Assembly: GCF_000380085.1 (NCBI RefSeq)
Contig: NZ_KB904556.1
Span: 62,001-126,000 of the forward strand
Origin: Streptococcus merionis DSM 19192
Lineage (GTDB): Bacteria; Bacillota; Bacilli; Lactobacillales; Streptococcaceae
Reading direction: 5' to 3'
Length of the DNA: 64,000 nucleotides
Below the pieces are notes generated by a model. The model was given only the letters and a program-made list of their open reading frames with translations. It did no database searches and was not told the DNA's origin. The position numbers were made by a program, and so were the translations under genes. The stretch's first letter is position 1; every line of letters starts with the position of its first letter. This document shows, piece after piece, positions 28,985-50,364 of this stretch.

Positions 28985-29170
28985 TCCTCCAAATTCGACC
29001 ACTTACCCTGCTCAGCTAACCACTTACTGAAAAAGGCTTGTTTCTTTTCAAAAGTCTGCTACAATAAGATTATCAAAAAAATTGAAGTTGGGCTAAAGGT
29101 GTAACTCCATTGGATATGGAAGCTCATCGGGTTCTCATATTTTCTAATAATCTGTATTTGTCGGTAAGCT

Positions 29171-29194
29171 CCTTTGATTCAGGAGATCGTTTGT
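29171..29194 (+). repeat. inner segment of dispersed intergenic repeat
   Basis: CCTTTGATTCAG followed by GAGATCGTTTG closely matches the interior of the element at 37381-37405. The ends are not visible, so this is a fragment. Confidence 0.35.
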
Positions 29195-29229
29195 TTTAAT
29201 CGTTTTGTAATTTGTGAAAGGAGGTGCCT

Positions 29230-29676
29230 ATGAAAATCAAGATTGAGTTGGATGATCAGCTAGAGGATGTTGAAGTTGTCATTCGAAGCAAGGATTTATC
29301 TGGTCAGGTGGAACAAATCCAGCAGGCTTTGGCTCAGTTGTCAACGTCTGCCCTAGTTTTCTATAAAGGCACCAGCGAGTATTTCCTGAATCTGATGGAT
29401 GTCCTCTTTTTTGAGACAGATGGGGCCAAGATTTTTGCCCACACTAGGGATAATGCTTACGAAGTAAGACTCAAACTCTATGAGCTTGAGGAACATTTGC
29501 CGAGATATTTTTGCCGGGTGGCCAAGTCGACTATTGTCAATACCAAGCCCATTTATTCGTTAGACCGATCTTTTTCTGGTACCAGCACGGTCAGCTTTTA
29601 CAAGACTCACAAGCAGGTTCATGTTTCACGGCATTATTACCAACTACTAAAAGAAAAATTACGAGAAACGAGGTAG
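29230..29676 (+). CDS. LytTR-domain regulator of an LRS pair
   Basis: A 148-residue protein with a C-terminal LytTR DNA-binding domain (about 55-148: YFLNLMDVLFFETDGAKIFAHT, FCRVAKSTIVN) and no receiver domain. Such stand-alone LytTR proteins in streptococci are regulators of LytTR regulatory systems (LRS), held inactive by a co-transcribed membrane protein. AAAGGAGG precedes the ATG at 29230; the GTG at 29224 overlaps that site. The membrane partner begins within five bases of the stop. It resembles the regulator at 47051. Confidence 0.87.
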   Translation: MKIKIELDDQLEDVEVVIRSKDLSGQVEQIQQALAQLSTSALVFYKGTSEYFLNLMDVLFFETDGAKIFAHTRDNAYEVRLKLYELEEHLPRYFCRVAKSTIVNTKPIYSLDRSFSGTSTVSFYKTHKQVHVSRHYYQLLKEKLRETR

Positions 29677-29680
29677 AATG

Positions 29681-30379
29681 ATGAAAAAAAATATCATAGG
29701 CCTAGGCTTGATTGCCTTGGCAGGCCTGATTTTATTAAAGGACTTTCTGGTGATTCCTGATTTTGGAATGCCGCTCTGGCGTCTAATTCTTATCATTGTT
29801 TTTTCAGTCGACGCTCTACAAAATGCTTTCAGGAGAAGTATTAAAGCAAGCATTATTGGAAGCTATATCGTCTTTATTCTGCTGAATGGGCATTTTCAGT
29901 GGATTAGGATTAGTCTGTGGCTACTGATTTTGGCTGGGGTTTTGTTTTATGTTGGTTTAAGTTTTTTGGTCAATCCTCCAAGCTATTATCGCAGCTTAGA
30001 TGGGAAAGCTAAGCTTTTAGGTTGGACGGATAGGGAGGATTTTACAGGAGTTCACTCGTCTGAGACGGACACGGTTTTTGGGACAGCGACCCGTTATGTC
30101 AATGATACCCAATTCACAGATGTCGGAGGCGATGTTGTTTTTTCTAGCGCGTCAATCTATTTTGATCATGCGATGATGTCTGGAAATCAGGCGACCTACT
30201 CAGGAGACACGGTCTTTTCCAGCCTCAGGCTCTTTGTACCAAGTCAGTGGGAGGTTAAAATCACTGGCGATAAGGTCTTTAGCTCTGTTCAAAAGAGTGG
30301 GAAACCAACCTCACCAACGCATCAATTGGAAATCACGGGCTCTCTCGTTTTCAGCAGCTTGGAGATTATCTATCTTTGA
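29681..30379 (+). CDS. LiaF-like membrane protein, partner of LytTR regulator
   Basis: A 232-residue protein. The first 100 residues form four hydrophobic segments similar to the LiaF/DUF5668 N-terminal region. The soluble half carries five spaced copies of a VF(S/G)(S/T) motif (DTVFGTA, DVVFSSA, DTVFSSL, DKVFSSV, SLVFSSL), as in LiaF-like C-terminal beta-repeat domains. LiaF-type proteins restrain envelope-stress signalling. Beside a LytTR regulator it is most simply the membrane inhibitor of an LRS. GAGG suits the second of the two tandem ATGs better. A terminator follows. Confidence 0.82.
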   Translation: MKKNIIGLGLIALAGLILLKDFLVIPDFGMPLWRLILIIVFSVDALQNAFRRSIKASIIGSYIVFILLNGHFQWIRISLWLLILAGVLFYVGLSFLVNPPSYYRSLDGKAKLLGWTDREDFTGVHSSETDTVFGTATRYVNDTQFTDVGGDVVFSSASIYFDHAMMSGNQATYSGDTVFSSLRLFVPSQWEVKITGDKVFSSVQKSGKPTSPTHQLEITGSLVFSSLEIIYL

Positions 30380-46834: not shown

Positions 46835-46905
46835 AGGCGGTAGACGGATTTGAACCGACGATCAAGCTTTTGCAGAGCCGTGCCTTACCACTTGGCTATA
46901 CCGCC
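46835..46905 (-). tRNA. tRNA-Cys (GCA)
   Basis: The 71-base cloverleaf starts GGCGGTATAGCC and ends CTACCGCC plus discriminator T. The acceptor stem pairs GGCGGTA with TACCGCC; the anticodon loop is CTGCAAA (anticodon GCA); the T-loop is GGTTCAAATCC. CCA is not encoded. Confidence 0.96.
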
Positions 46906-46957: not shown

Positions 46958-46989
46958 TTTTGCATCTTAAGTCCTGATTTTGCATCTTA
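46958..46989 (+). promoter_or_regulatory. tandem direct repeat, probable LytTR-binding site
   Basis: TTTTGCATCTTA occurs at 46958-46969 and at 46978-46989, a 20-bp period, with further agreement downstream of each copy. Its downstream edge lies about 35 bp before the -10 box at 47024, where an activator of the following LRS operon should bind. Confidence 0.6.
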
Positions 46990-47023
46990 CAGCCTGCGCG
47001 CATATAAAAATTGAATTTTCTGC

Positions 47024-47029
47024 TATAAT
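47024..47029 (+). promoter_or_regulatory. -10 box of the LytTR-DUF3021-ABC operon
   Basis: TATAAT preceded by TGC (extended -10). The -35 position reads CATATA, far from consensus, as expected for an activator-dependent promoter. Confidence 0.6.
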
Positions 47030-47050
47030 AATCCCAAAGGAGAGGTGTCA

Positions 47051-47506
47051 GTGAAACTAAGACTGGAAAAAATAGATGCCAAGCAAGAAGAAGGGGTGCT
47101 GATTCGCTATCGAGAAATGACGCCGACCCTTCAAACGATCTGCACCTTGGTGGAGAAGGGTCATCAGAAGATTTTAGGGATGAGTGAACAGGGGAACGTC
47201 TTTTTGCAAGTAGATGATATTCTCTATTTTGAGAGCGTTGATGGCAAGACTTTTGCCTATACAGACCACATGGTTTATCAAATTCCTCAGACCTTAAAAG
47301 ATTTATCGGCTACTTATGGTAGTAATGGTTTCTTTCGTTGTGCCAAGGGGATGCTGGTCAATATTTATCGGATTTCTGCCTTTAAAAGTCAATCATTCGG
47401 ACGGATTGAAGCCACTCTGGAAAATGGTGAAGTAGTGATTATTTCGCGAAAGTTTGCAGGGGAATTAAGGCAAGTCTTACAGGAGGGAGTTCAAGATGAA
47501 AACTAA
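47051..47506 (+). CDS. LytTR-domain regulator (LRS)
   Basis: A 151-residue protein with a C-terminal LytTR domain (about 55-150: VFLQVDDILYFESVDGKTFAYT, FFRCAKGMLVNIYRI) and no receiver domain. It matches regulators of LytTR regulatory systems, in which a co-transcribed membrane protein keeps the regulator inactive. GGAGAGG suits the GTG at 47051; the GTG at 47045 overlaps it. The DUF3021 gene overlaps its end by 11 bases. A tandem repeat upstream is its probable binding site, implying autoregulation. Confidence 0.89.
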   Translation: MKLRLEKIDAKQEEGVLIRYREMTPTLQTICTLVEKGHQKILGMSEQGNVFLQVDDILYFESVDGKTFAYTDHMVYQIPQTLKDLSATYGSNGFFRCAKGMLVNIYRISAFKSQSFGRIEATLENGEVVIISRKFAGELRQVLQEGVQDEN

Positions 47507-47942
47507 GTGGCAGAACTTTTTAAGCCAAGAAATTGCGATTGAATATAAGACGGCAACCTACTGTTTTGTCCTCTATTTTTTTGCCATCTGCTACCAACTC
47601 TGGCAGGGGCGCTCGACTGTATCCATTTTAACTCTGATTGAGATGGTTCTGGTGGTCTATGTGGTAACTCAGATTCAGTATTGGATTTTTGGAAATTTTG
47701 ATGAGGCAGACCACCTGCGAGGACGCAGATTATTGGGGCTCTTTGTTTGCCCCTTGCTCTACGGTGTGGCGGGTTCTGTTTTTTGTTGGTTTGATGGCAG
47801 TGGGCTGGCGCAGTTGGCGCTGGTGGTCTATGTTCTTTTGAAGGATTTGAGCTTCTTTTACTTTAACCGTCTCAAACGTCGAATTGACAGCAAGCACCTC
47901 AATCAACTGCTGAAAGATTACAAGGAAAGGGGAAAGGAATGA
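47496..47942 (+). CDS. DUF3021-family membrane protein
   Basis: A 148-residue protein with four membrane segments (about 22-40, 45-63, 83-103, 107-125) and a basic C-terminal tail. The pattern VYVVTQIQYWIFGN is typical of DUF3021 proteins that accompany stand-alone LytTR regulators. It is probably the membrane inhibitor of the regulator encoded just before it. Its stop overlaps the ABC ATPase start (ATGA), so the four genes are one unit. Confidence 0.87.
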   Translation: MKTKWQNFLSQEIAIEYKTATYCFVLYFFAICYQLWQGRSTVSILTLIEMVLVVYVVTQIQYWIFGNFDEADHLRGRRLLGLFVCPLLYGVAGSVFCWFDGSGLAQLALVVYVLLKDLSFFYFNRLKRRIDSKHLNQLLKDYKERGKE

Positions 47943-48784
47943 CCAATGTTATTGAAATACGTCATCTCCAAAAATACTATGGCAAGCACATGGGAGTCAG
48001 AGACGTGTCCTTGAGTGTGGAAGAAGGGGAGATTTTTGGTTTTCTAGGTTCAAATGGTGCCGGCAAGTCAACAACGATTCGCTGTTTATTGGGTCTGATT
48101 CACAAGACCTCTGGCGAAATGACCCTGTTTGGCAACCAGTATGGTAGTCTAGCAGACGCCCTTCACCATATCGGTTATATGCCTTCAGAGGCCATGTTTT
48201 ATCCTAAAATGAAAGTTAAGGAAGTGATTGACTTTGCAGCAAAGGCGAGGGGAATGGATTGCTCGCAGGAAGCTGAACGCCTTTGCCAGATTTTGGATGT
48301 TCCAGTGAATAAGAAGATTGAGGATTTGTCACTTGGAAATCGCAAGAAGGTCAGCATTGTCTGTGCACTACAACACAAGCCAGACTTACTTATTTTAGAC
48401 GAGCCAACTTCAGGGCTAGATCCCCTCATGCAGGAGCGCTTTTTCGGTCTGGTCAAGGAGGCTTGTGCCAAGGGAGCGACGTGTTTCCTATCTTCTCATG
48501 TTCTTTCAGAAATCAAGAATTACTGCAATCGTGTTGCTATTATCAAAGATGGGGAACTTTTGACGGTTGATAGTGTGGAAAATCTTACCCACACGCAGGC
48601 AAAACAAGTAAGGGTTTGGAAAAATGGTCAAGAGGAAACCTTTGTACATACAGGCTCTAGTCAGGAATTGCTAGTAAGATTAGCGAACCTAGCTCCAGAT
48701 GATTTTCTAGTAGAAGAGCCATCGCTAGAAGAACTCTTTATGCAGTATTATGAGGAGGGTGCCCATGATTCTACTCAAGCATGA
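47939..48784 (+). CDS. ABC transporter ATP-binding protein
   Basis: A 281-residue ATPase. Walker A is GSNGAGKSTT, the signature is LSLGNRKKVSIV, Walker B is LLILDEPTSGLDP and the H-loop is LSSHVLSEI. The C-terminal 70 residues are a small domain typical of multidrug or bacteriocin ABC-2 exporters. It overlaps both neighbours and is the third gene of the LytTR operon. The substrate is unknown; envelope stress or peptide export is a context guess. Confidence 0.92.
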   Translation: MTNVIEIRHLQKYYGKHMGVRDVSLSVEEGEIFGFLGSNGAGKSTTIRCLLGLIHKTSGEMTLFGNQYGSLADALHHIGYMPSEAMFYPKMKVKEVIDFAAKARGMDCSQEAERLCQILDVPVNKKIEDLSLGNRKKVSIVCALQHKPDLLILDEPTSGLDPLMQERFFGLVKEACAKGATCFLSSHVLSEIKNYCNRVAIIKDGELLTVDSVENLTHTQAKQVRVWKNGQEETFVHTGSSQELLVRLANLAPDDFLVEEPSLEELFMQYYEEGAHDSTQA

Positions 48785-49553
48785 ATTAAAACAAGGGTTG
48801 AAGAGTCTGGCGATTTGGTCAGTTACAGTTGCCTTTATTTGTGCAGGCTGTATCTGGCTCTATAAAAGTGTGGAGGGACAGTTGGCTGAAACAGCTAAAC
48901 TCTATGCGAATATGGGAGATATGGCCAAGGCTCTCGGCTTGGATAAGGTGAGTTTAGCAACGCTGGGGGGCTATTTTGCGACAGAAATCGCCCTCATGTT
49001 TGGCCTTGGTGCTGGTATGTTTGCTGCCATGTTAGGAGCGACTGCCTTATCCAAGGAAGAAGAAGGGCATACCAGTGAATTTCTTTATACGTTGCCTTTT
49101 AGCCGCATGCAGATTGTCCTTTGGAAGTATGCTGCCATATTCGTCAGTCTCCTCCTCTTCAATGCTCTGATTATAGGCATTGAAGCTATCGTCATCTGGC
49201 AACTCAATCTAGACTTTGCCTGGGAAAAATTCCTGACCTATCATGGCTTGGCTCTTTTCTTACAAATTGAGCTCGCAACGATCTGTTTCCTCGTTTCAGC
49301 TCTGAGTCGCAAAAAGCAAATCGGGGGAGCACTGGGTCTGACTCTTCTTTTCTATGTTATGGATATGATGAGTCGGGTTGTACCAGATATTGATATTCTT
49401 AAAAACTGGACACCCTACAACTTTGCCAGTGGAGTAGACATTTGGAGCGACAGCGCCATCAATTGGACAGGTCTTGCGATAGCTTTTGGCTTGAGTATTC
49501 TGGCCTTTGTAGGCAGTCTTGCCATCTATCAAAGAAAAGATTTGAATGGTTGA
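48765..49553 (+). CDS. ABC transporter permease (ABC-2 type)
   Basis: A 262-residue membrane protein with six hydrophobic segments and the ABC-2 loop LSKEEEGHTSEFLYTLPFSR. It is the partner of the ATPase upstream, whose reading frame it overlaps by 20 bases. AGGAGGG precedes the ATG at 48765; the frame from 48750 starts ahead of that site. It is the last gene of the LytTR operon, closed by the hairpin at 49561. Confidence 0.9.
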   Translation: MILLKHELKQGLKSLAIWSVTVAFICAGCIWLYKSVEGQLAETAKLYANMGDMAKALGLDKVSLATLGGYFATEIALMFGLGAGMFAAMLGATALSKEEEGHTSEFLYTLPFSRMQIVLWKYAAIFVSLLLFNALIIGIEAIVIWQLNLDFAWEKFLTYHGLALFLQIELATICFLVSALSRKKQIGGALGLTLLFYVMDMMSRVVPDIDILKNWTPYNFASGVDIWSDSAINWTGLAIAFGLSILAFVGSLAIYQRKDLNG

Positions 49554-49560
49554 ACATTCA

Positions 49561-49582
49561 AGGAGCCTCAGGGCTCCTTTTT
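49561..49582 (+). terminator. terminator of the LytTR-ABC operon
   Basis: AGGAGCC pairs with GGGCTCCT around TCA, followed by T5. Confidence 0.85.
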
Positions 49583-49722: not shown

Positions 49723-50364
49723 ATGAGGATACGTTATATTATGCTAATGCTGGCGACAGTCGTTCTTTCTAGTCTGTGGGGACTGGTTTTGCGCTGTAGA
49801 GGTATTTTGATTAGAGTGTTGTCGCCAGAGTATATTGGATATTATCAACCGCTTTTAACACTTTTATTGTGGTTAGTCACTTTGATGGCTCTCTTTTCAG
49901 TAGCTGTTTTATGTTATCGAAGTGGATTTTTTGTAGATTGGAAGGCAACTTTTGCTTGGAAAAGACTTTTTTTCTTGGTCGTGTTAGCCTTGTTGCTGCT
50001 TAATTTTAATTATTTGGTAGGAAAATTGCTGACTGCTAGCCAAATCACTAATACAAATCAACAAATGATGATGCAAGCCTACCATCTATTACCGAGAGGT
50101 GTTTTCTTGATAAATGGAACGATAGGAGCTGCACTTTTTGAGGAGACTATCTATCGAGCCTGTATTTTTAAAATACTGAAAAACAAAAAATTAGCATTCA
50201 TGATTTCGATAATAGTATTTCCTTTGGTTCATACGCAAAACCTCAGTGCCTTGGCTTACGTACCTACAGCTCTTGTCTTAACAGGGCTTTATTATAAAAG
50301 GGAGTCGCTATCTGATTGCATCCTAGTTCATGCACTGCATAATGCTCTTTCTTTTATGATTTGA
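49723..50364 (+). CDS. CPBP-family intramembrane protease
   Basis: A 213-residue protein with six or more membrane segments. The three CPBP motifs are visible: ALFEETIYRACIF (EExxxR), PLVHTQ (FxxxH-type) and LVHALHNALSF (HxxxN). The family includes glutamic endopeptidases that process prenylated or bacteriocin-related proteins; some act in bacteriocin self-immunity. It stands alone after the LytTR-ABC operon and has its own promoter. Its role here is unknown. Confidence 0.87.
   Translation: MRIRYIMLMLATVVLSSLWGLVLRCRGILIRVLSPEYIGYYQPLLTLLLWLVTLMALFSVAVLCYRSGFFVDWKATFAWKRLFFLVVLALLLLNFNYLVGKLLTASQITNTNQQMMMQAYHLLPRGVFLINGTIGAALFEETIYRACIFKILKNKKLAFMISIIVFPLVHTQNLSALAYVPTALVLTGLYYKRESLSDCILVHALHNALSFMI

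Follow-up and report, generated by a model that had tools for sequence, protein, structure and literature searches.

A LytTR Regulatory System (LRS), as described by Zou et al. 2018 (PMC6193735), combines a regulator of LytTR type with a membrane protein that inhibits it and with direct repeats located immediately ahead of the promoter. In Streptococcus mutans, the SMU_1070c/1069c LRS is accompanied by the ABC genes SMU_1068c/1067c, and its promoter is given in Table 2 of that paper as GCAACTTAG-11-GCAACTTGA-11-TTGTCA-13-TGATATACT. Deletion of SMU_1069c is reported there to induce its own operon, by under 20-fold, and the remaining four LRS operons of S. mutans are affected by SMU_1070c/1069c as well. 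Binding to the repeats was shown by gel shift for HdrR, a sister regulator of SMU_1070c (PMC6193735).

The DNA analyzed here (the window) is a stretch of 64,000 nucleotides of Streptococcus merionis DSM 19192, which carries a four-gene operon with the gene order of SMU_1070c to SMU_1067c, including a related membrane protein, an ATPase, and a permease. The window promoter has GCA-type half-sites, an 11-bp spacer, a period of 20 bp, and every spacing through to the extended -10 in common with the promoter listed in Table 2. It differs from the latter in having no TTGTCA -35, and the operon differs from the SMU_1070c/1069c LRS in being divergent to a tRNA-Cys gene. Other described systems are less similar. 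HdrRM and BrsRM of S. mutans also combine a LytTR regulator and a membrane inhibitor with repeats upstream of the promoter and self-activation, but they are described with ACC-type half-sites, a 12-bp spacer, and two-gene operons without ABC genes (PMC6193735). The SMU_433/434 LRS of S. mutans has ABC genes as well, but its repeats are ACATCTTAT-12-ACCTCTTAT with period 21 (PMC6193735). The putative LRS lmo0984-lmo0987 of Listeria monocytogenes shares with the window the presence of repeats (GCATCTTAG-12-GCATGTTAC) and of an ABC transporter within the operon, but the period is 21, and its membrane protein is described as being without obvious homology to those of S. mutans (PMC6193735). Order relatives L019 and L021 carry the exact half-sites of lmo0984-lmo0987, and L020 differs from them by one base.

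Of the 284 genus genomes, one contains the exact published SMU_1070c promoter, and in it the four orthologous genes follow directly. This genome, which we infer to be that of S. mutans, encodes LytTR, membrane, ATPase, and permease proteins 53, 40, 71, and 41% identical, respectively, to those of the window, and its membrane protein matches the family profile A2 at E=4.3e-51. Judged by sequence, the window regulator and membrane protein are orthologous to SMU_1070c/1069c, and the operon is an LRS of this type, an ordinary member of an already described kind that leaves the existing picture of the LRS class unchanged.

Genes of the operon

The first gene (47051-47506, + strand) codes for a LytTR-domain regulator of 151 aa without a receiver domain. 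PF04397 (E=7.6e-22, residues 50-143) is the sole Pfam family recognized in it at E<=0.001, and its GTG start is consistent with the orthologs. The gene for a small membrane protein of 148 aa, the SMU_1069c counterpart and predicted inhibitor of the regulator, is directly downstream (47496-47942, +), with an overlap of 11 bases. It is followed by the genes of an ABC transporter ATPase of 281 aa (47939-48784, +; PF00005, E=5.6e-28) and an ABC-2 family permease of 262 aa (48765-49553, +; PF12679, E=1.1e-27). The coordinates thus bear out the four overlapping genes described in the earlier note, and the regulator, ATPase, and permease pass Pfam. A probable intrinsic terminator of the operon, with an 8-bp stem, a 4-nt loop, and a T run (fold z = -2.53), is located at about 49560-49582 (+); the pattern scan did not list it. 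A two-component system would have a histidine kinase and a receiver domain; this reading was rejected, as no receiver domain was found in the regulator and none of the four operon genes codes for a kinase.

A membrane protein of DUF3021 or DUF2154 type is one of the marks of an LRS. The membrane protein of the window had been called a DUF3021 protein, and this name suits its relatives better than the protein itself. Against PF11457 (DUF3021), the window protein reaches E=0.63 and 10.7 bits only, with a cut-off of 24.7. Among its relatives, six of the seven members of alignment A2 match DUF3021 at E<=1 (the weak match of the window protein included; best 3.3e-6), and in alignment A3, 7 of the 10 members do so at E<=0.01; the window protein is not one of the seven. 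As a label for the family, DUF3021 is therefore acceptable, but it is weak for the window member, which may be regarded at best as a divergent protein of DUF3021 type. Hydropathy peaks are present in the protein, and the AlphaFold2 model computed from ten family members has four long helices with a mean pLDDT of 84. When this model was searched against PDB folds, 59 matches were obtained at E<=10, none of them at E<=0.001 (best E 1.1).

Direct repeats and promoter

The 12-mer TTTTGCATCTTA occurs twice upstream of the operon, at 46958-46969 and 46978-46989, with period 20, and the second copy is separated from the extended -10 by 31 bp; the repeat is thus placed as the earlier note had it. The predicted LytTR binding site (46958-46990, +) consists of GCATCTTAA (46962-46970) and GCATCTTAC (46982-46990), 11 bp apart. 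These half-sites end 11 bp ahead of the -35 position, so the complete layout is GCATCTTAA-11-GCATCTTAC, 11 bp, and ATATAA-13-TGCTATAAT. The extended -10 TGCTATAAT is at 47021-47029 (+), and no recognizable -35 accompanies it. The statement that a -35 is lacking is a fair one, as the position (47002-47007) reads ATATAA and the pattern scan listed no promoter-like site in this region.

When the 145-bp intergenic region was shuffled 5000 times with its dinucleotides preserved, 3 shuffles reached an exact direct repeat of 12 bp; among 1278 overlapping segments of this length from the window, 5 did. The repeat pair is more than chance. In the 2.36-Mb genome, TTTTGCATCTTA is present three times, as the operator pair and one unpaired copy. 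A genome search for the pair, a check suggested in the earlier note, used a pattern of 16 fixed letters for the pair and the reversed pattern as control. The pair is unique at 0-1 mismatches, and one more place appears at 2. At <=3 mismatches there are 23 places versus 16 for the control. A wider regulon of the operator was rejected on these counts, with the third 12-mer unpaired; at that stringency it is unsupported because a second good operator copy was not found in the genome.

Conservation of the repeats

The membrane-protein profile matched in 18 of 284 genomes of the genus, with a LytTR gene adjacent in 17; the eighteenth match (G022) is weak and without a LytTR gene. Locus L157, which duplicates L150 exactly within the same genome, was excluded, and L156 and L158 had no LytTR match. 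The ATPase and permease are directly downstream in 15 of the 17 genus loci. In L143 (the same locus as L041, from the ZJ373 genome), the match to the ATPase is short and split, and the permease was not found; in L150 the permease lies beyond the stretch examined. Both of these loci have an alpha/beta-hydrolase-like frame between the membrane protein and the ATPase (L041:6887-8124, L150:1943-2772).

Repeats at period 20 are present in 16 of the 17 orthologous loci, and the -10 lies 42 bp after the start of the second repeat in 14 of the 16. The best pair in the first scan had period 20 in 15/17; L139 gave period 30 in that scan and period 20 when the search was limited to periods 18-24, and L144 (S. 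varani), the one ortholog of 17 without recognizable repeats, gave none. A pair score of at least 12 of 14 was obtained in 14/17 loci versus 0.4% of shuffles, the shuffles being mononucleotide ones (200 per sequence) and the consensus being derived from the family itself. When the loci were aligned on the -10, TGCA..TTA appeared twice in register 20 bp apart, with variable sequence between. The anchor required TGnTAnnnT, and conservation of those letters in the -10 is by construction.

In a wider survey of periods 18-24, 115 of 123 loci were kept; the others lacked a match, had a protein longer than 200 aa, or offered too little DNA upstream. The loci kept represent 105 distinct LytTR proteins. 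Counting distinct proteins with a pair score of at least 12, period 20 was found for 14/14 of the streptococcal clade versus 0/21 of the others, which have period 21 or 22. The footprint is claimed for the streptococcal clade only, because just 21 of the 88 proteins outside it reach 12 of 14. Loci L050-L054 and L064, from outside the genus and with all four genes kept, have no pair scoring at least 12 with this consensus (8 to 11). When LytTR residues separating GCA-type from ACC-type half-sites were looked for, no alignment column satisfied the criterion, and the two sets are confounded by kinship. We suggest the 20-bp repeat period as a mark of the SMU_1070c-type clade. The 16/17 streptococcal loci add a clear operator footprint for a class of regulatory systems that has received little study.

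Proposed mechanism and rival explanations

Very probably (about 90%), the operon is a self-activating LRS of the SMU_1070c/1069c type, in which the membrane protein would restrain the regulator and the regulator, acting at the repeats, would amplify the operon. In the resting state, the small membrane protein would keep the LytTR regulator inactive, and the promoter without a -35 would be weak. Upon relief of the membrane protein, the LytTR protein would bind the two half-sites spaced by 20 bp next to the missing -35 and help the polymerase onto the extended -10, making up for the missing element. The whole operon, ABC transporter included, would then be amplified. That the repeat is the autoactivation site, as proposed in the earlier note, is supported by orthology, namely by an S. 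mutans relative with the same promoter geometry and by repeats kept in most of the orthologous loci. The predicted role of the membrane protein as inhibitor of the regulator is likewise supported by the S. mutans relative, where loss of SMU_1069c induces the operon (PMC6193735). The ABC transporter, which had been named as the output, is a plausible one with its genes in the operon, but it need not be the sole output because SMU_1070c/1069c is reported to affect the four further LRS operons in S. mutans.

As for the relieving signal, we infer from S. mutans data, by way of a guess, that it may be cell-envelope or division trouble. On gpsB repression, the SMU_1067c, 1068c, and 1070c proteins are reported to go up together (PMC12625713). 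In a treR mutant, SMU.1069 and SMU.1070 were more abundant, as were DivIC and MurD (PMC9040809), and an RNA-seq study of Cnm tabulates SMU_1067c and SMU_1068c with fold-changes of 3.3 and 2.3, respectively (PMC9513430).

The repeats could also be bound by a different LytTR regulator, either that of the second LRS in the window (29224-30379) or a two-component LytTR protein, which would make the operon a cross-regulated target. The genome has seven LytTR domain matches from which such a regulator might come, and the LRS of S. mutans are reported to affect one another's operons (PMC6193735), but the other LRS of the window has repeats of its own from another class, ACCACTTAC-12-ACCACTTAC with a 21-bp period, and a GCA half-site at period 20 accompanies regulators of the SMU_1070c type (14/14 in the clade against 0/21 elsewhere). 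Cross-regulation of this kind is considered very unlikely. The chance is next to negligible that the repeats are the remnant of the T-run of an upstream terminator or a functionless chance duplication. By eye, the first repeat does stand directly after a terminator-like T-run in several relatives, e.g., L140, L141, L147, and L149; against this reading stand the two conserved TGCA..TTA blocks, which keep their register across a variable spacer, and the 3 in 5000 shuffles.

Divergent tRNA-Cys and neighboring genes

The repeats stand between the self-activating operon proposed above and the divergent tRNA-Cys gene (46835-46905, - strand). Nothing else in the genome matches this gene closely, the two other matches being 74% identical. 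Its promoter-like TTGACT-17-TACAAT spans 46953-46925 (-), with the start of the -35-like TTGACT 8 bp away from the first of the 9-bp repeats. In a scan of about 1 kb upstream, 1 of the 17 loci had a tRNA-Cys beside the operon, and its adjacency to the repeats is for this reason probably incidental. Since the repeats are only 8 bp from its -35-like box, it is barely conceivable that LytTR protein bound there might also increase or decrease the transcription of tRNA-Cys, in S. merionis alone; if true, this would tie cysteine decoding to the LRS signal.

A CPBP-type intramembrane protease is encoded at 49723-50364, behind the terminator-like hairpin and a promoter-like TTGACA-18-TATCAT. For this protease, the PRD regulator, the S66 peptidase, and the cation-efflux proteins, no tblastn match at E<=1e-3 was obtained in the loci searched, which were 19 of the 80 loci of relatives with flanks up to 6 kb. 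These neighbors and tRNA-Cys were rejected as parts of the system, as they are not kept beside the operon in the loci checked. Because the tested neighbors were not found beside the operon in the 19 loci, the operon genes and promoter seem to move as one cassette.

The second LRS in the window occupies 28998-30379. Its repeats ACCACTTAC-12-ACCACTTAC are at 28998-29027 and the -10 TGCTACAAT at 29057-29065. The LytTR gene (29224-29676) is followed by a gene (29678-30379) whose membrane-protein product matches LiaF-TM, and about 160 bases separate the -10 from the LytTR gene.
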